Part shown: piece by piece, positions 36,561-45,792 of the stretch
Layout of the letters: every line of letters starts with the position of its first letter
How positions within the stretch are numbered: position 1 is the stretch's first letter
Origin: Ottowia flava
GTDB taxonomy: Bacteria > Pseudomonadota > Gammaproteobacteria > Burkholderiales > Burkholderiaceae_C
Assembly (NCBI RefSeq): GCF_008017535.1
Contig: NZ_VRUA01000014.1
Location: forward strand, 1 to 64,000
DNA length: 64,000 bases
Direction of reading: 5' to 3'
Translations under genes and position numbers: made by a program
Notes under the pieces: generated by a model
Told to the model about the DNA's origin: nothing
Databases searched by the model: none
The model's input: the letters and a program-made list of their open reading frames with translations, nothing else

Positions 36561-37133
36561 TCAGCGCTGCTCGATCAGCTGGCCGCGCACTTCGCCCTCG
36601 GGGTAGCGCGCCGTGGTCAGGTTGACGTACCACTGGCCGGCCAGCAGGTCGGACCGTTGCTTGGGCGTCAGCATCGCGCGGCCCTCCGAAGGGCTGAGCA
36701 CCGAACGGCCCAGGGAAACCACCGGCGCAGCGACTTCGTCGCTCATTCCGGGGCTGTGGAAGCTGCCCAGGCGCACCGGACCGCTGAGGCCGGAGAAGCT
36801 CAGCTTCCACTGCAGGAGGCCGGTCTTGCGGTTGAGCACCGCCACCAGTTCACCCTGGGCCGGGCTATCGGTGCGCGGCACGGCACTGTGGCCATTGAGC
36901 ACCGCGCGGAAAGCCGCCACCTCGGGCTGGCGCGACGGCGTCGTCGGCGGTGGCGGCAGGGTGATCACCGGCGGCGCGGGCTGCATCACCGGCGTGCTGG
37001 AACAGGCGGACAGCAACGCAGCCACACCAAGCGGCAGCCAGACACGGCGACGGCTCAGGCCGGTGTTGTGCGCAGCCAAGCGGCCGGTGCACGCCGATGA
37101 ACGAGGGGAAGCAGAAGGGGCCGTCTCTAACAT
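36561..37133 (-). CDS. CHRD domain lipoprotein
   Basis: A 190-residue secreted lipoprotein. A signal sequence with a twin-Arg start (SRRRVWLPLGVAALLSACSS) ends in a LSAC lipobox, followed by a Pro/Thr-rich spacer. The CHRD domain is recognisable from FRAVLNGHSAVPRTDSPAQG, WKLSFSGLSG, FHSPG and the C-terminal WYVNLTTARYPEGEVRGQL. The start is uncertain: ATG 37133 or 37145. It is next to a second CHRD lipoprotein gene (37226), in the same direction; function unknown. Confidence 0.8.
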   Translation of the reverse strand: MLETAPSASPRSSACTGRLAAHNTGLSRRRVWLPLGVAALLSACSSTPVMQPAPPVITLPPPPTTPSRQPEVAAFRAVLNGHSAVPRTDSPAQGELVAVLNRKTGLLQWKLSFSGLSGPVRLGSFHSPGMSDEVAAPVVSLGRSVLSPSEGRAMLTPKQRSDLLAGQWYVNLTTARYPEGEVRGQLIEQR

Positions 37134-37225
37134 GCATGCAACCATAGCATCCGCAGCGCCGAATTCCAGAGTGCCGACCCGCATTTACAGGCCGATACGC
37201 TGACGATCAGCAGGCGCACCGGCAC

Positions 37226-37870
37226 TCAATGGACCACGTGCAACTGACCACGCAACTCGCCGCCAGGGTTGGCGGTGGTTTGGACGTTCAGGTACCAGCG
37301 CCCGCCCATGAGGTCGACCGCCTGTTCAGGCGTCAGGGTGGCGCGGCCCTCATATTTAGGACCGAACGGGCCTGGCCATACCAGCGTTGCAGGGCCATTT
37401 TGCCCTTGGTCGGCCGGGCCGTGGAACTGGGCGCCTGTGATGGCGCCCGACAGGCCAGACCACGAAGCCTTCCAACGGAACAGGCGCGTGTTGGCGTCGT
37501 AGATGGCGTCCAACTGCCCCGTGCCGCTGCTGCGAGCAGGCGGCAGCGTGTTGGCGGCGTCCAGGCGGGTGCTCAGAGTGACGACGCTGGCCTGGGGATC
37601 GATAGGTGCCGGGGGCACGGCGCCGGGTACGCCAACGGGCGGCGTCCCGATGGGCGGCAAAGCCTGGGGCATCGGTTGCACGGGCGGTACAGCACTCGGC
37701 TGAGCCACCGGGGGCATCGGCGCCTGCGCGGGGGGCGTTGTCTGCGGCATGCGTACGGGCGGCGGGTTGTAGCGCGGGCCCAGATCCACCGAGGCGCAGC
37801 CACCGACAAGCACCGCCAGGGCCAGCAAGACCAGCGTGGAACGTGAAGATGGGAAAGTGAAGGTGGACAT
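37226..37870 (-). CDS. CHRD domain lipoprotein with Pro-rich spacer
   Basis: A 214-residue lipoprotein: the signal ends at VGGCAS, then a ~75-residue Pro-rich spacer likely crosses the cell wall layer. The CHRD domain (residues ~95-214) ends WYLNVQTTANPGGELRGQL, closely matching its downstream neighbour. The two are diverged tandem paralogues separated by ~90 bp. CHRD domains were first noted in chordin; bacterial roles are unknown. Confidence 0.85.
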   Translation of the reverse strand: MSTFTFPSSRSTLVLLALAVLVGGCASVDLGPRYNPPPVRMPQTTPPAQAPMPPVAQPSAVPPVQPMPQALPPIGTPPVGVPGAVPPAPIDPQASVVTLSTRLDAANTLPPARSSGTGQLDAIYDANTRLFRWKASWSGLSGAITGAQFHGPADQGQNGPATLVWPGPFGPKYEGRATLTPEQAVDLMGGRWYLNVQTTANPGGELRGQLHVVH

Positions 37871-38059: not shown

Positions 38060-38521
38060 CTAGGTCAGTTCCGCCGTGAGGACGGCCACCACCACAGTCT
38101 GGTCTGCACCATCGCGCTCGCGCGATCGCAGCCACCAGATCGCGCCCTTCTTGATGGCGCACTCGCCGCCTGGCAGTCCCAAGAGCTGCGCCGCCACCTG
38201 ACCCAGGGTGGGCTGGTGGCCCACCACCAACACCGGCGCCTTGGACAGGGGCCAGCCAGCCAGCTGCAGGACCTGATCGGCGCTGGCCCCCGGTCGCAAC
38301 TCGTCCAGCGACTTATAGCGCCGGCCCAGCGCGCGGGCGGTTTCGTCGGTGCGTCGCGCCGAACTGCTGAGAATGCGCGTGCCGTCGGGCAGCTGGCGAT
38401 CCAGCCAGGCGGCCATGCGGGCCGCCTGCTTTTCGCCGCGGCGTGTGAGTGACCGCTCCAGGTCGGTCATGACCCCTTCCGGTTCTTGCGCTTCGGCGTG
38501 GCGCCACAAGATCAGATCCAT
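38060..38521 (-). CDS. sixA: Phosphohistidine phosphatase SixA
   Basis: A 153-residue histidine phosphatase with the phospho-acceptor motif LWRHAEAQ (His8), the second Arg in SSARRTDETA and the catalytic His in VVGHQPTLG. SixA removes phosphate from histidine on phosphotransferase proteins such as the PTS-Ntr HPr homologue. It overlaps the ppk1 3' end by 10 nt, so it is co-transcribed with ppk1. This pairing is common in Burkholderiales. Confidence 0.92.
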   Translation of the reverse strand: MDLILWRHAEAQEPEGVMTDLERSLTRRGEKQAARMAAWLDRQLPDGTRILSSSARRTDETARALGRRYKSLDELRPGASADQVLQLAGWPLSKAPVLVVGHQPTLGQVAAQLLGLPGGECAIKKGAIWWLRSRERDGADQTVVVAVLTAELT

Positions 38522-40593
38522 TCCTCCTCCTGCGGGCCCTTGGCCCCATACCGTGCCATCAGGGCTTGCTGGGCCGAATGCCCAGGCTCGCCCCCCGGCG
38601 GCACAACGCTCCGGTACTCGCCGCCCGGTCCTTGGATCCAGGCATCACATGCATCGTGCAGGTAAGCCACCAGGCATTCATCGACGATGCGCTGGCGCAG
38701 TGCCGGGTCGGTCACCTGCCACGCCGTTTCCACGCGCCGCAGCATGTTGCGGTTCATCCAGTCGGCCGAAGACAGCCACAGTTCTTCATGGGCGCCGGTG
38801 CGGAAATAGAACACCCGTGAGTGCTCCAGGAACCGTCCGATGATGCTGCGCACGCGAATGTTCTCAGTGAGCTGACCGGGCAGCATGCAAGCGCCGCGCA
38901 CGATCAGGTCGATCTTCGCGCCCGCGTCGCCGGCACGCAGCAGCGCTTCGATCAGCGGCTGATCGGTCAATGCGTTCATCTTGGCGACCACACGGCCGCC
39001 ACGCCCGCGCCGCGCCGCCAGGCCCACCGCCTCGATCTTGGCCAGCATCTGCTTATGCAGCGTGAATGGCGCCAGCAGCATGCGCTGCATGCGCGGCAGC
39101 CGGCTGTGGCTGGCCAGGTGCACAAAGAGCTGGTCCATGTCGGCGGTGAGCCGCGCGTCCGCCGTCAGGTAGCTGATGTCCGTGTACAGCGCCGCCGTGC
39201 GGGGGTTGTAGTTGCCCGTGGACAGGTGGCCATAGCGCCGCAGCTGGCGGCCTTCGCGGCGCGTGATCAGCAGCATCTTGGCGTGCGTCTTGAGTCCGAC
39301 CACGCCGTAGACCACCTGCGCACCTGCCTGCTCCAGACGCTCCGCCCAGTTGATGTTGGCTTCCTCGTCGAAGCGCGCCTTCAGCTCGACCACGGCCGTC
39401 ACTTCCTTGCCGCGGCGCTGCGCCTCGATCAGCAGATCCATCATCCGGCTGTCGTTGCCGGTGCGGTAGATGGTCTGCTTGATGGCCAGCACCTTCGGGT
39501 CGTGCACCGCTTCGCGCAGGAAATCGATCACACCGTCGAAGCTTTCAAAAGGCAGGTGGCTCAGCACATCGCCCTGCTTCAGCCGCTCCATCACCGACTG
39601 GCCCCTGCGCAATTGGACCGGGTAGCTCGCGACATAGGGCTTGAACTGCAGGTCCTGCCGGTCCGCCAGCTGGATCAACTGCTGCAGCCGCACCAGGTTG
39701 ACCGGGCCCTGCACTCGGAACAGAGCCTCCGGCGGCAGATGGAATTGCTTCAGCAACAAGCCCGACAGCGCTTCCGTGCACGCGGACGACACCTCGACCC
39801 GCACCGCCTCGCCGTAGTGGCGCTGGTGCAGGCCCTGGCGCAGGGCGGTGCGCAGGTTTTTGACCTCCTCCTCGTCCACCGACAGGTCGGAATGCCGGGT
39901 CACGCGAAAGTGTGAAAACGCACCCACTTCGCGGCCCGGAAACAGGTCGGCCAGGTTGCCGCGGATCACGCTGGACAGCATGACGAACAACGTTTCGCCC
40001 CCGGCGACCCGGTCGGGCATGCGCAACACGCGCGGCAGCACCCGCGGCACCTTCACGATCGCAATGTCGTTGGTGCGTCCGAACGCGTCCTTGCCCTTGA
40101 GTTGGACGATGAAGTTCAGCGACTTGTTGGCCACCTGCGGGAACGGGTGCGCCGGATCCAGCGCCACCGGCACCAGCAGCGGCTTGACTTCGCGCAGAAA
40201 CAGCTGGCGCACCCAGCGCCGCTGCGCCTCGGTGCGGTCAAGGTGCGACACGATTCGCATGCCCTGCGCGCCCATCGCCGGTAGCAGCGCTTCGTTGAAG
40301 ATCTGGTACTGCCGCGCCACCAGCGCATGGGCATCCGCCAGTGTTGGCTGCAGGCGCCCATTCGCTTCAGTGCCGGATCGCCACGCCGTGATGTGCGGGT
40401 CGGCTCGCACCTCAAAGAACTCGTCCAGGTTGGACGACACGATGCACAGGTAGCGCAGCCGCTCCAGCAAGGGCACGTCCGCCCGCTCGGCCCAGTGCAG
40501 CACGCGGTGGTTGAAAGCGAGGATGCTGGCGTCGCGGTCCAGCAGGGGATACTTTTCGAGGATCGGCTGCGGCACGGGGCGACGGGACGGCAT
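38512..40593 (-). CDS. ppk1: Polyphosphate kinase 1
   Basis: A 693-residue enzyme that builds polyphosphate from ATP. The N domain has ASILAFNHRVLHWAE and SSNLDEFFEVR. The catalytic PLD-like domains include HLSTGNYNPRTAALYTDIS, RGACMLPGQ and LEHSRVFYF, which contain the two catalytic His positions. It is followed by sixA (10-nt overlap) and lies 31 bp after the GT4 gene on the same strand. Placement downstream of a PhoB-box-like site suggests induction by low phosphate. Confidence 0.96.
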   Translation of the reverse strand: MPSRRPVPQPILEKYPLLDRDASILAFNHRVLHWAERADVPLLERLRYLCIVSSNLDEFFEVRADPHITAWRSGTEANGRLQPTLADAHALVARQYQIFNEALLPAMGAQGMRIVSHLDRTEAQRRWVRQLFLREVKPLLVPVALDPAHPFPQVANKSLNFIVQLKGKDAFGRTNDIAIVKVPRVLPRVLRMPDRVAGGETLFVMLSSVIRGNLADLFPGREVGAFSHFRVTRHSDLSVDEEEVKNLRTALRQGLHQRHYGEAVRVEVSSACTEALSGLLLKQFHLPPEALFRVQGPVNLVRLQQLIQLADRQDLQFKPYVASYPVQLRRGQSVMERLKQGDVLSHLPFESFDGVIDFLREAVHDPKVLAIKQTIYRTGNDSRMMDLLIEAQRRGKEVTAVVELKARFDEEANINWAERLEQAGAQVVYGVVGLKTHAKMLLITRREGRQLRRYGHLSTGNYNPRTAALYTDISYLTADARLTADMDQLFVHLASHSRLPRMQRMLLAPFTLHKQMLAKIEAVGLAARRGRGGRVVAKMNALTDQPLIEALLRAGDAGAKIDLIVRGACMLPGQLTENIRVRSIIGRFLEHSRVFYFRTGAHEELWLSSADWMNRNMLRRVETAWQVTDPALRQRIVDECLVAYLHDACDAWIQGPGGEYRSVVPPGGEPGHSAQQALMARYGAKGPQEEEWI

Positions 40594-40624
40594 GTCAGCA
40601 CTTCAAAAGTGGGAGCACGCCAGC

Positions 40625-41695
40625 TTACCTCAATGCGCTTGTGCGGCCAATTCTGGGCTGCTCTGCATGGTTTTTTGCAGGCACCAGAAAGCCGCGAAAG
40701 AGTTCCGTTGCAGCGTCCCAGCCAAAGCGCTCGGCATGGGCCCGTGCGGCATGACGCTCGATGCGCAACGCGGCCTCGACAGCCTGCCCCAGGTCCGCGT
40801 GCATCGCGCCGCCCAACGGTTGGCCTGCGGGCGCGCGCAGGACTTCGAGCGGACCGTCGACCGGAAAGGCCGCCACGGGCGTGCCCGCCGCCATGGCCTC
40901 CAGCATCACCAAGCCGAATGTGTCGGCCCGGCTCGGAAAGACGAACACGTCCGCGCTGGCGTACACGCGCGCCAACTCGTCGCGTGGCAGCACGCCGAGC
41001 CAGCGCACCTCCGGGTGGCGCGCGCGCAGCTTCTGCTCGACCGGGCCGACGCCGCACACCACCTTGGTGCCAGGCGCGTCCAAGGCCAGAAAGGCCTCGA
41101 TGTTCTTCTCGTAAGACACCCGCCCGACGAACAGTTGCACCGGTCGCACCAACTCGCCCAGCGCCGGGTAGGCCGATGGCCAAGCGCTGAAGCCGAACAG
41201 CGACGTGTCCACCCCGTGGGTCCAGCGCCGCAGGTTGCGGAAGTGGCGCTCCGCCAACATGTCGGCCACGCCGTCCGTGGGCACCATCACGCCCGCAGAG
41301 GGCGCATGGAAATGCCGGAACAGCGCGTAGCCCCAACCGAGCGGCACGTGCGCCGCCGCGTTCAGGATCTCGGGAAACTTGGTGTGAAACGCGGTGGTGA
41401 ACGCCCAGCCACGCCGCAGGCAGTGCCGCCGCGCCGCCCAGCCCAGCGGCCCTTCGGTGGCGATGTGGACCGCGTCGGCTTGCAGGCTGTCGAGTTGCGC
41501 CGCCAACGCGCGCCCTGGCCGCACCGCCAGGTCGATGCCCGCGTAGCCGGGGCAAGGCCGGGTCTTGAAGCGGTACGGGTGGATCACCTCCACCTCGTCG
41601 CCGCGCCGCTGCAGGGCCGCCACCAGCTCGACCAGCGTGGTGACGACACCGTTGACCTGCGGCGCCCAGGCGTCGGTGACCAAGGCCAGCTTCAT
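40625..41695 (-). CDS. GT4 family glycosyltransferase, probable glycolipid synthase (Agt-like)
   Basis: A 356-residue GT-B enzyme. The acceptor domain starts MKLALVTDAWAPQVNGVVTT, and the nucleotide-sugar domain has LFVGRVSYEKNIEAFL and the E-x7-E motif in PSRADTFGLVMLEAMAAGTP. This start is typical of the SqdX/MgtA branch that transfers sugar to diacylglycerol. It overlaps the PlcP-like gene by 4 nt. The PlcP-Agt pair is known from bacteria that swap phospholipids for glycolipids under phosphate limitation; I infer the same here. Confidence 0.85.
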   Translation of the reverse strand: MKLALVTDAWAPQVNGVVTTLVELVAALQRRGDEVEVIHPYRFKTRPCPGYAGIDLAVRPGRALAAQLDSLQADAVHIATEGPLGWAARRHCLRRGWAFTTAFHTKFPEILNAAAHVPLGWGYALFRHFHAPSAGVMVPTDGVADMLAERHFRNLRRWTHGVDTSLFGFSAWPSAYPALGELVRPVQLFVGRVSYEKNIEAFLALDAPGTKVVCGVGPVEQKLRARHPEVRWLGVLPRDELARVYASADVFVFPSRADTFGLVMLEAMAAGTPVAAFPVDGPLEVLRAPAGQPLGGAMHADLGQAVEAALRIERHAARAHAERFGWDAATELFRGFLVPAKNHAEQPRIGRTSALR

Positions 41696-42480
41696 GCCTC
41701 GGCCACCGCCGGCTTGCGCTGCGCAGCCTCCCCTTGCGTCCCCTGCCAGAACAGCAATTCCAGCCGACCGTCGTGGTGCTCCACGAGCGCGCTGCGGCTT
41801 TCCACCCAATCCCCATCGTTGCAGTACAGCGTGCCTTCGATCTCGCGGATCTCGGCGTGGTGGATGTGGCCACAGACCACGCCCTGGTGGCCGCGCCGGC
41901 GCGCCTCGGCCGCGACGGCGCTTTCAAAGTCGCTGACGTAGTTCACGGCCTTCTTGACCTTGTGCTTCAAGTAAGCGGACAGCGACCAGTAAGGCAACCC
42001 AAGGCGGGCCCGCAGGCTGTTGATGTGGCGATTGAGCTTGAGCGTGAACTCGTAGGCGTGGTCGCCCACATAGGCCAGCCACTTGGCACACTGGATCACG
42101 CCATCGAAATAGTCGCCGTGCGTGATCCACAGCCGCCGGCCGTCCGCGGTGGTGTGCACCGCGTCCTCGACCACCTCGATGCCTCCGAAGTTGTTGCCAA
42201 CGAAACCGCGCGCAAACTCGTCGTGGTTGCCGGGCACGAAGACCACGCGGCACCCCTTGCGCGCCTGGCGCAGCAGCTTCTGCACCACGTCGTTGTGCGC
42301 CTGCGGCCAGTACCAGCGGCGGCGCAACTGCCAGCCGTCGATGATGTCACCAATCAGGTACAGCGACTCGGCCTGGTGCTCGCGCAGAAAGTCCAGCAGC
42401 GGCCCCGCCTGACAGCCTGGCGTGCCCAGGTGGATGTCGGATATGAAAATGGCGCGGAACCGGGGTCGGTCGCGCGCCAT
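41692..42480 (-). CDS. Metallophosphoesterase, PlcP-like phospholipase C (or LpxH-related)
   Basis: A 262-residue calcineurin-like phosphoesterase. All metal motifs are present: SDIHLG, GDIIDGW, GNHDEF, HGDYFD and GHIHH. The body (RRWYWPQAHNDVVQKLLRQA, YWSLSAYLKHKVKKAVNYV) resembles PlcP of alphaproteobacteria, which removes phospholipid head groups in phosphate starvation, more than classic LpxH. Start 42480 (MARDRPRFRAIFISDIHLG) is used; the open frame further upstream covers repeat DNA. Coupling to the glycosyltransferase supports a lipid role. Confidence 0.85.
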   Translation of the reverse strand: MARDRPRFRAIFISDIHLGTPGCQAGPLLDFLREHQAESLYLIGDIIDGWQLRRRWYWPQAHNDVVQKLLRQARKGCRVVFVPGNHDEFARGFVGNNFGGIEVVEDAVHTTADGRRLWITHGDYFDGVIQCAKWLAYVGDHAYEFTLKLNRHINSLRARLGLPYWSLSAYLKHKVKKAVNYVSDFESAVAAEARRRGHQGVVCGHIHHAEIREIEGTLYCNDGDWVESRSALVEHHDGRLELLFWQGTQGEAAQRKPAVAEA

Positions 42481-42831
42481 GTCGGCTACGGGCTCGGGGC
42501 CTCCGCCCCCGCCCTCCGGCGCCAGCCCGTCTTCCCGCAAGTCTTGCGTAGCCACCCGCGCCAACCAGCCCGCTGACGCCACCGATCGAGCGGCCGCGGA
42601 GCAGGCCATCTCAGCGAACGCCGTCGCCGCACCTGCGGCGGCGACTGGCGTCGTCTTCCCTCCCGCAGCGCGCAGCGCGAAGAGTGGGGAGGGAAGCCGC
42701 GTCAGCGGCTCAGAGGGGTGGCGCACCTGCTCAGCGAACGCCGTGCTCGGACCTGCGCCGAGCACTGGCGTTGTCCCCCCTCCCGCAGAGAGAGGGGGGA
42801 AGGCGCGCAGCGACTCAGGGGGGTGTCCCAA
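42481..42831. other. Repeat-filled spacer between olsB-like and plcP-like genes
   Basis: About 350 bp with no gene on either strand that I support, although the frame upstream of plcP stays open. It is mostly made of the two tandem family-3 units at 42611-42830. Confidence 0.6.
42611..42830. repeat. Family-3 tandem repeat, two 120-bp units with conserved hairpin
   Basis: Two units begin CTCAGCGAACGCCGT, 120 bp apart. Each holds a hairpin: GTCGCCGC/GCGGCGAC (42623-42645) and GTGCTCGG/CCGAGCAC (42743-42765), both with loop ACCTGCG. The stems differ at four positions and each change is compensated. A second GC-rich part (CCCTCCCGCAG then a GGGGAGGG-type arm) follows in both. Confidence 0.85.
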
Positions 42832-43683
42832 TCACTCCCCCAAAAAATGCTTGCGGTAGCGCGCCGGCAGGTCGCCCAGGCGCATCAGCATCGGCAAATC
42901 GGCCGAGTTGAAGTCCGGATCCCATGCCGGTGGGCCCAGCACCTTGGAGCCCAGGCGCAGGTAGCCCTTGATCAGTGCGGGCGGCTCCACCGACAGTTGG
43001 TCGTTCAGCTGTTCCACCGGCAGCGGCAGGCGCGGGCGCACGTGAAATTCAATCGGCGCCATGTGGTTCTGGCTGACCTGGCGCCAAATGCTGGACGCCA
43101 CGTCGCCGCTGACGATGCCGTTGTGCAGCATCGGAATGCTGGCGCAGCCGATCATCGTGTCCAGGCCGTTGCGCACCATGAATTCGCCGAGCGCCGTCCA
43201 CAACGCCATGATCACGCCACCATGGCGGTGCTCGGCGTGCACGCAGCTGCGGCCCAGCTCCAGCATGCGGCTGCGCAAGGCGCGCAGGCGGGTCAGGTCG
43301 AACTCGGTGTCGCTGTAGGTGCCACCCACGCGGCGCGCCTGCGCCGGGGTCAGCACGCGGTAGGTGCCGATGACCTCACCGCTGGCAGCGTCGCGCACCA
43401 GCAGGTGTTCGCAGTAGTCGTCGAACAGGTCGACGTCGTGGCCGGGGACCGCCGTCGTCAGCCGCGCGCCCATCTCGCCGGCAAACACCTGGTAGCGCAG
43501 GCGCTGCGCGGCCCTCACTTCGTCCTGGTGCCGCGCCCAGGCCACCTGGATCTCGCCGCCGAGGCCCGCCGCACCCCGGCCAGAAGGCGTGTCGCTGCCG
43601 CGTGGATGAACAGACCCCCGTGGCAGCTGAACCGGCGGGCTCAGCTGCGACAACGCAAAAGTGGGCGTGGGCAGTTCTTTCAT
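42832..43683 (-). CDS. GNAT acyltransferase, OlsB-like (ornithine N-acyltransferase)
   Basis: A 283-residue GNAT-fold protein of the OlsB/hemolysin-like type. Residues ~40-160 have the acyl-homoserine-lactone-synthase-like pattern (AWARHQDEVRAAQRLRYQVF, GTYRVLTPAQA, ELGRSCVHAEHRHGGVIMAL). OlsB transfers 3-hydroxyacyl chains to ornithine, the first step to phosphate-free ornithine lipids. No OlsA is in the window. GAGG precedes the ATG. A PhoB-box-like sequence lies 78 bp upstream, and the plcP/GT4/ppk1/sixA genes follow on the same strand. Confidence 0.85.
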   Translation of the reverse strand: MKELPTPTFALSQLSPPVQLPRGSVHPRGSDTPSGRGAAGLGGEIQVAWARHQDEVRAAQRLRYQVFAGEMGARLTTAVPGHDVDLFDDYCEHLLVRDAASGEVIGTYRVLTPAQARRVGGTYSDTEFDLTRLRALRSRMLELGRSCVHAEHRHGGVIMALWTALGEFMVRNGLDTMIGCASIPMLHNGIVSGDVASSIWRQVSQNHMAPIEFHVRPRLPLPVEQLNDQLSVEPPALIKGYLRLGSKVLGPPAWDPDFNSADLPMLMRLGDLPARYRKHFLGE

Positions 43684-43760
43684 GGGGCCAGTCCTCGTCG
43701 TATGTCCGCTTTTCTGAGGGCCATCGTGCGGGCTGGGCGTGACGTGTTCGTGTCGATACC

Positions 43761-43778
43761 GTGACGACAACATGACAG
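43761..43778 (-). promoter_or_regulatory. Putative PhoB (Pho) box upstream of the olsB-like gene
   Basis: On the minus strand CTGTCATGTTGTCGTCAC. The first 7-mer CTGTCAT matches the Pho box exactly; the second (TCGTCAC) matches 5 of 7 positions of CTGTCAY, with the standard 4-bp spacer. It lies 78 bp upstream of the olsB-like ATG, a normal distance for an activator site. Confidence 0.6.
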
Positions 43779-43979: not shown

Positions 43980-44543
43980 ATGCCCGCACCCGCCGACACT
44001 CGCCTGCGCCTGCAGCCCCACCCCAACACGCCCTGCCCCGCGCTGGACAGCCTGTGGGTGGACCTGCACTGGCTGCCGTCCGGCGCGCTGGCGCTGCGCT
44101 ACGCGCTGAGCGGCGCCCTCGCCGAGTTGCGGCTGCCCACGCCCTCGCCGGCGCCCGCCGCGACCGATGGCCTGTGGCGCCACAGCTGCCTGGAGGCCTT
44201 CATCGGCGCGGCAACGGGCACGGCGTACGTCGAATGCAACTTCTCGCCTTCGGGCGACTGGGCCTGCTACGCCTTCGACGCGGAACGCGTGCGCGCCGCG
44301 GCATCGCCCACCGGCGCGCCGCAAATCACCACCGAACGCAGCGCGCACACGCTGACGCTGACCGCCACCGTGCCGCGCAGCGCGCTGGCCGCGCTGCCCA
44401 GCAACGCACCCGCGCTGCTGGGCCTGACGGCGGTGATCGAAAGTACCGACGGCAGCCTGAGCTACTGGGCGCTGGCGCACCCGCGCGGTGTGCCCGACTT
44501 CCACGCGTGCGCTGGCTGGACGGCGCGCCTTCCCCTTGATTGA
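43980..44543 (+). CDS. DOMON-like domain-containing protein
   Basis: A 187-residue protein with the DOMON-like, carbohydrate-binding-module-9-like pattern: WRHSCLEAFIGAATGTAYVECNFSPSGDWACYAFD in its middle (about residues 65-100) and a C-terminal AHPRGVPDFHACAGW. No signal peptide is seen, so it is probably cytoplasmic. It lies 31 bp upstream of the NamZ-like gene on the same strand; a shared cell-wall or sugar role is possible but not shown. Confidence 0.85.
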   Translation: MPAPADTRLRLQPHPNTPCPALDSLWVDLHWLPSGALALRYALSGALAELRLPTPSPAPAATDGLWRHSCLEAFIGAATGTAYVECNFSPSGDWACYAFDAERVRAAASPTGAPQITTERSAHTLTLTATVPRSALAALPSNAPALLGLTAVIESTDGSLSYWALAHPRGVPDFHACAGWTARLPLD

Positions 44544-44574
44544 TGGCGGCCCGCGCGGCCGCTGCGAAACCCCC

Positions 44575-45792
44575 ATGCACATCGGACTCGAACGCTTTCT
44601 GCAAGACCCCGCGCTGCGCGCCCCGCTGAAAGGCCGCCGCGTCGCGCTGCTGGCGCACCCGGCCTCGGTCACGCGCGACCTCACCCATTCGCTCGACGCG
44701 CTGGCCGCCCTGCCCGATGTCCAGCTCACGGCCGCCTTCGGCCCGCAGCACGGCCTGCGCGGCGACAAGCAGGACAACATGGTCGAGTCGCCTGACTTCA
44801 CCGACCCGCGTCTGGGCATCCCCGTGTTCAGTCTGTACGGCGAAGTGCGCCGTCCCACGCCCGCCATGCTCGCGCCCTGGGACGTACTGCTGGTCGACCT
44901 GCAGGACCTGGGCTGCCGCATCTACACCTTCATCACCACGCTGCGCTACGTGCTGGAAGCCGCCGCCGCGCACGGCAAAGCCGTGTGGGTGCTGGACCGG
45001 CCCAACCCCGCCGGCCGCCCGGTCGAAGGGCTGACGCTGCGCGAAGGCTGGGAAAGCTTTGTCGGCGCCGGCCCCATGCCGATGCGCCACGGCATGACCA
45101 TGGGCGAGTTGGGCCACTGGTTCATCGCTCAACTCGGTCTGCAGCTGGAATACCGCGTCATTGAAATGCAGGGCTGGCAACCCGACGCCGCGCCCGGCTT
45201 CGGCTGGCCGGTGGGCCCGGACGATTGGCGCACCTGGGTCAACCCCAGCCCCAACGCCGCCAACCTGAGCATGGCGCGCGCCTACGGCGGCACCGTCATG
45301 CTGGAAGGCACGACCCTGTCCGAAGGCCGCGGCACCACGCGCCCGCTGGAGCTGTTCGGCGCGCCCGACATCGACACCGGCCGCCTGCTGGCCGACATGC
45401 GCGCCTTGGCGCCCGGCTGGCTGCGCGGCTGCACGCTGCGCGAATGCTGGTTTGAGCCCACCTTCCACAAGCACGTCGGCCAGCTGTGCGCCGGCGTGCA
45501 GATCCACACCGAAGACCCGGCCCATTACGACCACGCCGCCTTCCAGCCCTGGCGCCTGCAGGCGTTGGCCTTCCGCGCCGTGCGCCTGCAGCGGCCCGAC
45601 TACCCGCTGTGGCGCGACTTCGGCTACGAGTACGAACACGACCGCCTGGCGATCGACCTGATCAACGGCAGTCCGCTGCTGCGCGAGTGGGTGGACGACG
45701 TGAACGCGCCACCCGCGGCGCTGGACGCGCTGGCGCGCGCGGATGAAGCGGCCTGGCTGGTGGCACGAACGCCCTTCCTGTTGTATGGATAG
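44575..45792 (+). CDS. namZ: DUF1343 family exo-beta-N-acetylmuramidase (NamZ-like)
   Basis: A 405-residue protein of the DUF1343 family, for which NamZ of Bacillus cleaves terminal MurNAc from peptidoglycan fragments. Conserved pieces: RVALLAHPASVTRDLTHS, AFGPQHGLRGDKQDNM, VDLQDLGCRIYTFITTLRY, LDRPNPAGR and EGTTLSEGRGTTRPLELFGAP. Bacillus NamZ is secreted, but no signal peptide is visible here, so it may act on recycled muropeptides in the cytoplasm. The ATG at 44575 is used. Confidence 0.88.
   Translation: MHIGLERFLQDPALRAPLKGRRVALLAHPASVTRDLTHSLDALAALPDVQLTAAFGPQHGLRGDKQDNMVESPDFTDPRLGIPVFSLYGEVRRPTPAMLAPWDVLLVDLQDLGCRIYTFITTLRYVLEAAAAHGKAVWVLDRPNPAGRPVEGLTLREGWESFVGAGPMPMRHGMTMGELGHWFIAQLGLQLEYRVIEMQGWQPDAAPGFGWPVGPDDWRTWVNPSPNAANLSMARAYGGTVMLEGTTLSEGRGTTRPLELFGAPDIDTGRLLADMRALAPGWLRGCTLRECWFEPTFHKHVGQLCAGVQIHTEDPAHYDHAAFQPWRLQALAFRAVRLQRPDYPLWRDFGYEYEHDRLAIDLINGSPLLREWVDDVNAPPAALDALARADEAAWLVARTPFLLYG

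Follow-up and report, generated by a model that had tools for sequence, protein, structure and literature searches.

The 64,000-nucleotide stretch of the Ottowia flava genome considered here (contig NZ_VRUA01000014.1, positions 1 to 64,000; hereafter, the window) carries five consecutive minus-strand genes, olsB-plcP-GT4-ppk1-sixA, which occupy positions 38060-43683 as read from the open reading frames (ORFs). Assigned at the family level, their products are an OlsB-like N-acyltransferase, a PlcP-type phosphoesterase, a glycosyltransferase of the GT4 family, a polyphosphate kinase and a SixA-like histidine phosphatase, and a tandem Pho box, the predicted binding site of the regulator PhoB, lies in front of the first gene (Table 1). 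Taken together, these features point to a PhoB-activated operon for phosphorus economy that joins a swap of membrane lipids with the synthesis of polyphosphate, a reading to which we give a probability of roughly 0.8. As the initial annotation had described, ppk1 and sixA overlap by 10 nt, plcP and GT4 overlap by 4 nt, and GT4 and ppk1 are separated by 31 bp. The mechanically called ORFs of olsB and plcP begin too far 5' (at 43773 and 42831, respectively); the likely starts are ~43683 for olsB, the Met from which the OlsB of the same-genus locus L058 aligns, and ~42480 for plcP, judged from the conserved part of its product. Because the plcP product begins near 42480 rather than at the mechanical start, the 350-bp olsB-plcP spacer noted earlier is real. 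It is widened by two copies of a GC-rich, dispersed, intergenic repeat (two 73-nt units that are 77 % alike), which has at least 39 further matches in the same genome (40 scored of 131 candidates).

Table 1. Coordinates of the genes and other features of the olsB-plcP-GT4-ppk1-sixA locus in the window
Feature	Position	Strand	Basis
sixA-like histidine phosphatase	38060..38521	-	TIGR00249 68.9 bits, PF00300
ppk1, polyphosphate kinase	38512..40593	-	NF003918 1004 bits, TIGR03705 825.1 bits
agt-like GT4, predicted diacylglycerol glycosyltransferase, Agt1 type	40625..41695	-	47.9 % identity and tree
plcP, predicted intracellular phospholipase C, calcineurin-like superfamily	41692..42480	-	tree 100/100, GNHD motif
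Two copies of dispersed intergenic repeat, olsB-plcP spacer	42540..42831	.	own-genome matches
olsB-like N-acyltransferase, 283 aa	42832..43683	-	PF13444, NF052554
Tandem Pho box, four half-sites, 11-bp period	43739..43778	-	score 23/28

The plcP product contains the motifs SDIHLG, GDIID, GNHDE, THGDYFD and GHIHH, which presumably act as calcineurin-type metal-binding motifs, and it matches PF12850 and PF00149 above their cut-offs. It is 53.8 % and 58.1 % identical to proteins of Sinorhizobium meliloti and Pseudomonas aeruginosa, respectively, that we take to be the PlcP of those species; the S. meliloti locus, found beside acyl-homoserine-lactone (AHL) synthase and LuxR genes, is presumably that of the studied PlcP. 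Plasmid-borne relatives of PlcP are, where a feature is given, mostly annotated as UDP-2,3-diacylglucosamine diphosphatase; i.e., these PlcP genes carry the names of lipid A enzymes in the databases. Such labels would favour a quite different view, in which the phosphoesterase is the LpxH of lipid A synthesis, GT4 a lipopolysaccharide enzyme and the whole cluster a matter of envelope housekeeping. That view is barely credible and was rejected, given that the window protein scores 44.4 bits against TIGR01854 (LpxH; cut-off 190.35) while a separate LpxH gene on contig C13 of the same genome scores 211 bits, that a separate LpxH also occurs in 19/19 relatives tested (15 over the cut-off), and that a tree built from a subset of the collected loci parts 31 PlcP from 20 LpxH rows with 100/100 support, the S. 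meliloti and P. aeruginosa proteins lying on the PlcP side. Moreover, GNHD occurs in all of the PlcP rows, including the window protein, versus GNRD in all (20/20) of the LpxH rows, and the Pho array in front of the cluster also speaks against lipid A synthesis. The initial annotation had named the protein PlcP and had singled out its placement relative to LpxH as the point on which that name should stand or fall; tree, motif and hidden Markov model score all bear the name out. The assignment as a PlcP-type enzyme, predicted to release diacylglycerol, is hence supported.

The gene that overlaps plcP encodes a glycosyltransferase that is 47.9 % identical to the Agt1-type protein of P. aeruginosa versus 34.6 % to Agt2, and a tree places it on the Agt1 side, with Agt2 and four family proteins on the other side of a 100/100 split. 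The rows for Agt1 and Agt2 were taken from plasmid copies, recognised by the genes beside them; L117, a long-branch row in a quick tree, was left out of the final tree, and the tree speaks to the Agt1/Agt2 split rather than to branching inside the Agt1 half. Based on both trees and identity, the Agt2 type was rejected for this protein. According to excerpts of PMC8528852, P. aeruginosa Agt1 alone yields monoglucosyl-diacylglycerol (MGDG) in Escherichia coli and Agt2 yields glucuronic acid diacylglycerol (GADG); the SAR11 Agt, in excerpts of PMC4796936, gave both products, and homology hence does not fix the sugar that GT4 adds. The window protein is predicted to glycosylate diacylglycerol, and a glycolipid role is supported by homology. 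Elsewhere in the family, an Agt2-side glycosyltransferase gene lies a few kb from plcP in L094, L100, L104 and L105, and the choice of glycolipid may therefore vary between genera. The O. flava genome also encodes a second Agt1-side glycosyltransferase (L219, C4:275-1363), 48.6 % identical to the window GT4, with three Pho-like half-sites, judged by eye, ~110-140 bp upstream (C4:134-162).

The first gene of the cluster encodes a protein that scores 124.6 bits against PF13444 and whose two best NCBIfam matches are OlsB models, far above OlsF and AHL synthases. It is also 33.3 % identical to a GNAT protein encoded beside malic enzyme in S. meliloti, which we take to be the OlsB of that organism. 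Since its scores of 155.9 (NF052554) and 145.5 bits lie below the equivalog cut-offs of 350 and 320, respectively, the protein is filed as OlsB-like. An OlsA candidate is unlinked to the cluster, i.e., a 275-aa protein on contig C45 whose best match is the OlsA model NF052553, at 127.8 bits and under the 300-bit cut-off. The distance between 155.9 and 350 bits, along with the need for olsB in the formation of lysine lipids as well in Acinetobacter baumannii (excerpts of PMC11828411), leaves some room for a lysine, glutamine or glycine lipid in place of ornithine lipid, which would make the locus an aminolipid and glycolipid unit; we judge this unlikely, as the two OlsB models outscore OlsF and the AHL synthases by far and an OlsA-like gene is present. 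An aminolipid role for the OlsB-like protein is supported as a family-level assignment. Of the formation of glyco- and ornithine lipids claimed by the initial annotation, the glycolipid and the aminolipid role are upheld at the level of homology, with ornithine as the probable head group.

Control by phosphate is indicated by an element on the minus strand that comprises four half-sites, CTGTCATGTTG TCGTCACGGTA TCGACACGAAC ACGTCAC, and lies 55-95 bp upstream of the olsB start, giving the arrangement of a Pho regulon, with 7-bp half-sites directly repeated at an 11-bp period before the first gene. It was scored over 28 positions against a pattern seen in relatives (CTGTCAY-like half-site repeats at an 11-bp period, often four), and no other place in the window reaches 21/28; before plcP, GT4, ppk1 and sixA, no second array is present in the window, the best scores being 16-17 of 28. 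Phosphate control had first been proposed from an 18-mer, CTGTCATGTTGTCGTCAC, that is indeed found at 43761-43778 on the minus strand but does not suffice by itself, since 24 sites in the 4.1-Mb genome differ from the consensus at two positions and the count at three or fewer mismatches is 217, versus 160 for a reversed control. The 18-mer was rejected as sole evidence for being too common, and the larger, four-half-site array, which stands far above chance expectation, was used instead. Within the same genome, a three-half-site pattern allowing up to three mismatches gives 7 matches compared to 1 for the control. Besides the olsB site itself, as part of the four-half-site array, these lie upstream of pstS, upstream of a PhoX alkaline phosphatase gene (434.5 bits), 13 bp before the gene of a UgpC-like transport ATPase (399.6 bits, under a cut-off of 432), at the initial codons of a mechanically called ORF whose product resembles 5'-nucleotidase/NAD-nucleotidase (249.7 bits, under a cut-off of 436), at the 3' terminus of a NUDIX gene and among ribosomal protein genes. 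The UgpC-like and 5'-nucleotidase-like genes are plausible phosphate genes; the sites at the NUDIX end and among ribosomal protein genes lack one, and the latter is most likely due to chance. PhoB is encoded in the genome (325.5 bits, cut-off 296.2), and genes for PhoU, PhoB and a PhoR-like kinase lie 3' of pstS on contig C23.

The cluster is one of several arrangements around plcP. Strong relatives of the plcP product (best E-value below 1e-40) occur in 147/200 genomes of the family, and matches at 1e-3 occur in 170/200, the weakest being at the level expected for LpxH; across the phylum, relatives are found in 102/299 genomes at 1e-20. Gene order was followed in a first set of 60 of the 170 matching genomes, taken down a ranked list with preference given to long contigs, and in a second set of 80 named loci, 63 of which remain after 17 with short flanks are left out. 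The five genes stand in order on one strand in 23/60 of the first set, which is not a random-sample rate, and in 25/63 of the second (26/80 in all); the latter becomes 23/63 when ppk1 is required to be no more than 1 kb from GT4, i.e., without L239 and L265. This order occurs in Ottowia, Acidovorax, Ramlibacter and Limnohabitans, with Ottowia thiooxydans as the top named match. Other arrangements among the 63 include plcP alone (20 loci), olsB-plcP-ppk1-sixA (seven), olsB-plcP (three) and smaller groups. Eight Variovorax loci (L288, L290, L295, L297, L298, L301, L302 and L305) have plcP without olsB, GT4, ppk1 or sixA.

Arrays like that of the window recur in front of olsB. At a threshold of 20/28, 25/37 loci of the first set, the window included, have one upstream of olsB, compared to 1/111 Markov shuffles and 1/37 reversed sequences. 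In the second set, 31/46 reach 20, after omission of L273, where a match at the contig end is an artefact; the count is 30/43 without L237, L239 and L240, which share sequence with the first set in a 60-mer test, and related species occur in both sets. Random 350-bp pieces of the second-set loci, which may include true arrays, reach 20 in 23/480 cases. Only 2/48 loci that have olsB show a separate array before plcP, versus 17/32 loci without an olsB match. Regions upstream of GT4 (1/39 in the first set and 1/35 in the second) and sixA (0/32 and 1/35) are at background, and 11/15 regions upstream of pstS, the positive control, and 14/31 upstream of ppx, which in many loci is divergent to pstS, reach 20 in the second set. 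The array itself, its repeated occurrence among relatives and the presence of its motif at pstS and phoX in the same genome lend strong support to the Pho control put forward by the initial annotation, acting on the operon through a predicted PhoB site.

The polyphosphate half of the locus requires more discussion. PPK1 is a clear assignment, exceeding the cut-offs of both TIGR03705 (465.85) and NF003918, and a sixA-like gene accompanies ppk1 in 33/38 second-set loci. Yet, in many relatives, ppk1 has a Pho array of its own directly before it (14/36 in the first set and 18/38 in the second), while there is none in this genus; the polyphosphate part may therefore have originated as a unit of its own. 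The same finding would be expected if olsB-plcP-GT4 and ppk1-sixA were two separately transcribed Pho units, together only through an ancestral pst-pho neighbourhood, and so would be the seven of 63 loci with olsB-plcP-ppk1-sixA but no GT4, the location of ppk1-sixA ~6 kb from GT4 in L239 and L265, and the 20 of 63 loci in which plcP lacks the other four genes. This alternative has a real but clearly minority chance for the window itself, since GT4 and ppk1 lie 31-50 bp apart here, in L058 and L059 of the same genus and in O. thiooxydans L230, and none of these four loci shows an array upstream of ppk1 (11-15 of 21 for three half-sites). We read the locus as two neighbouring Pho units; in this group the second has lost its separate switch, which would leave ppk1-sixA dependent on read-through from the olsB promoter.

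Of the 26 loci that carry all five genes, a ppx match is present in 21, and 11 have a pstS match 1.9-5.6 kb after sixA. In 14 of 18 genomes searched, pstS and plcP share a contig and lie no more than ~13 kb apart, which is not so in the remaining ones of those 18, namely the window's genome, two same-genus relatives and G135. In the relative G099, the five genes are followed by ppx, pstS, a permease gene, an ABC ATPase gene, phoU and phoB- and phoR-like genes (one gene between permease and ATPase was left out of the scan), whereas in the window's genome ppx, pstS, phoU, phoB and phoR are on another contig, C23.

Several other results also weigh against the single-operon reading. Besides the scores of the OlsB-like protein and the OlsA candidate, that of the SixA-like protein is just under the TIGR00249 cut-off of 74.5, and it too is filed with that suffix. 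The array threshold of 20 was fixed after arrays had been seen in the first locus set. Upstream of olsB, 12/37 loci in the first set and 15/46 in the second fall below 20, and just six of these 27 regions have an array of at least 20 within 1500 bp; i.e., some olsB promoters have weaker or no such Pho sites. The dispersed repeat in the olsB-plcP spacer could end or weaken transcription. Finally, PlcP produces a phosphorylated head group and not free phosphate, so that a further phosphatase is needed before lipid phosphorus could be stored.

Under the preferred reading of one operon, PhoB would bind the four-half-site array upstream of olsB when phosphate is low. PlcP would then cleave phospholipids to diacylglycerol and the phosphorylated head group, the Agt1-type GT4 would glycosylate the diacylglycerol, most likely to MGDG, and OlsB, together with the unlinked OlsA candidate, would form an aminolipid, most likely ornithine lipid. 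We infer that transcripts would continue through the repeat-bearing spacer, and that read-through would raise PPK1 and the SixA-like phosphatase, allowing scavenged or salvaged phosphate to be banked as polyphosphate. As to the SixA-like protein, one speculative and rather doubtful idea, drawing on SixA as a phosphohistidine phosphatase and on the overlap of its gene with ppk1, is that it may reset a PPK1 phosphohistidine or else free the head-group phosphate, carrying lipid phosphorus into polyphosphate under PhoB. In L087 (5831-6286) and L232 (2733-3188), a sixA-like gene is kept without a ppk1 match in the locus, a hint that its function is not confined to PPK1.

Each part of the locus has precedents. 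In P. aeruginosa, plcP-agt1 (PA3219-PA3218; read from a plasmid copy identified by order and annotation) resembles the window in that plcP overlaps by 4 nt with the gene behind it, which encodes an Agt1-type glycosyltransferase. Excerpts of PMC8528852 place a Pho box in front and report that the pair makes glycolipid under phosphate stress; in contrast to the window, there is no olsB before it and no ppk1-sixA behind it within 4 kb on each side. Among the PlcP neighbourhoods of types 1-6 in marine heterotrophs, type 2 has plcP with agt downstream, as in the window, and the clusters have putative Pho boxes, but the genomic-context section, within the excerpts of PMC4796936, names neither olsB nor polyphosphate genes, and the main text of that paper has no occurrence of 'betaproteobacteri' or 'polyphosphate'. 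The plcP-agt genes and their Pho control are also a subject of PMC9239053, as far as its excerpts go. In Burkholderia sensu lato, olsB is predicted to answer to PhoBR and is Pho-boxed like that of the window (excerpts of PMC7814305, a paper in which neither PlcP nor ppk1 occurs), and in Acinetobacter it has been shown to answer to PhoBR (excerpts of PMC11828411, a paper in which PlcP does not occur), the olsA of A. baumannii lying elsewhere, as does the OlsA candidate here, and not being phosphate-regulated. Within the excerpts of open-licence literature, no report that joins olsB, plcP, agt and ppk1 was found among the matches listed, nor, with the same scope, one on lipid remodelling in the Comamonadaceae, which fits the earlier statement that the combination had not been described in this group. 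What appears to be new is the joint arrangement and its recurrence in related bacteria.

Fresh water and soil are often short of phosphorus, and members of the Comamonadaceae, among them Limnohabitans, Rhodoferax and Acidovorax, are common in both. With its conserved order, two predicted kinds of phosphorus-free lipid and polyphosphate synthesis, the locus would make lipid remodelling directly testable in this family, and it poses the question of why a cell so starved that it parts with its phospholipids would also build a storage polymer, polyphosphate.

Scans for other signals were uninformative, i.e., the sigma-70-type promoter scan gave 0 sites versus 0.3 expected, and the terminator scan gave none in the olsB-plcP spacer and 8 sites in all versus 3.8 in shuffles (standard deviation 1.9), with three on the minus strand inside ppk1. 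Just 3' of sixA, two tandem minus-strand genes (36561-37184 and 37226-37870) encode CHRD-domain proteins with lipoprotein-like N termini, and the regions upstream of them have no Pho array (17 and 16 of 28). Beyond the promoter end of the operon, a plus-strand gene (44488-45792) encodes a NamZ-type exo-beta-N-acetylmuramidase.

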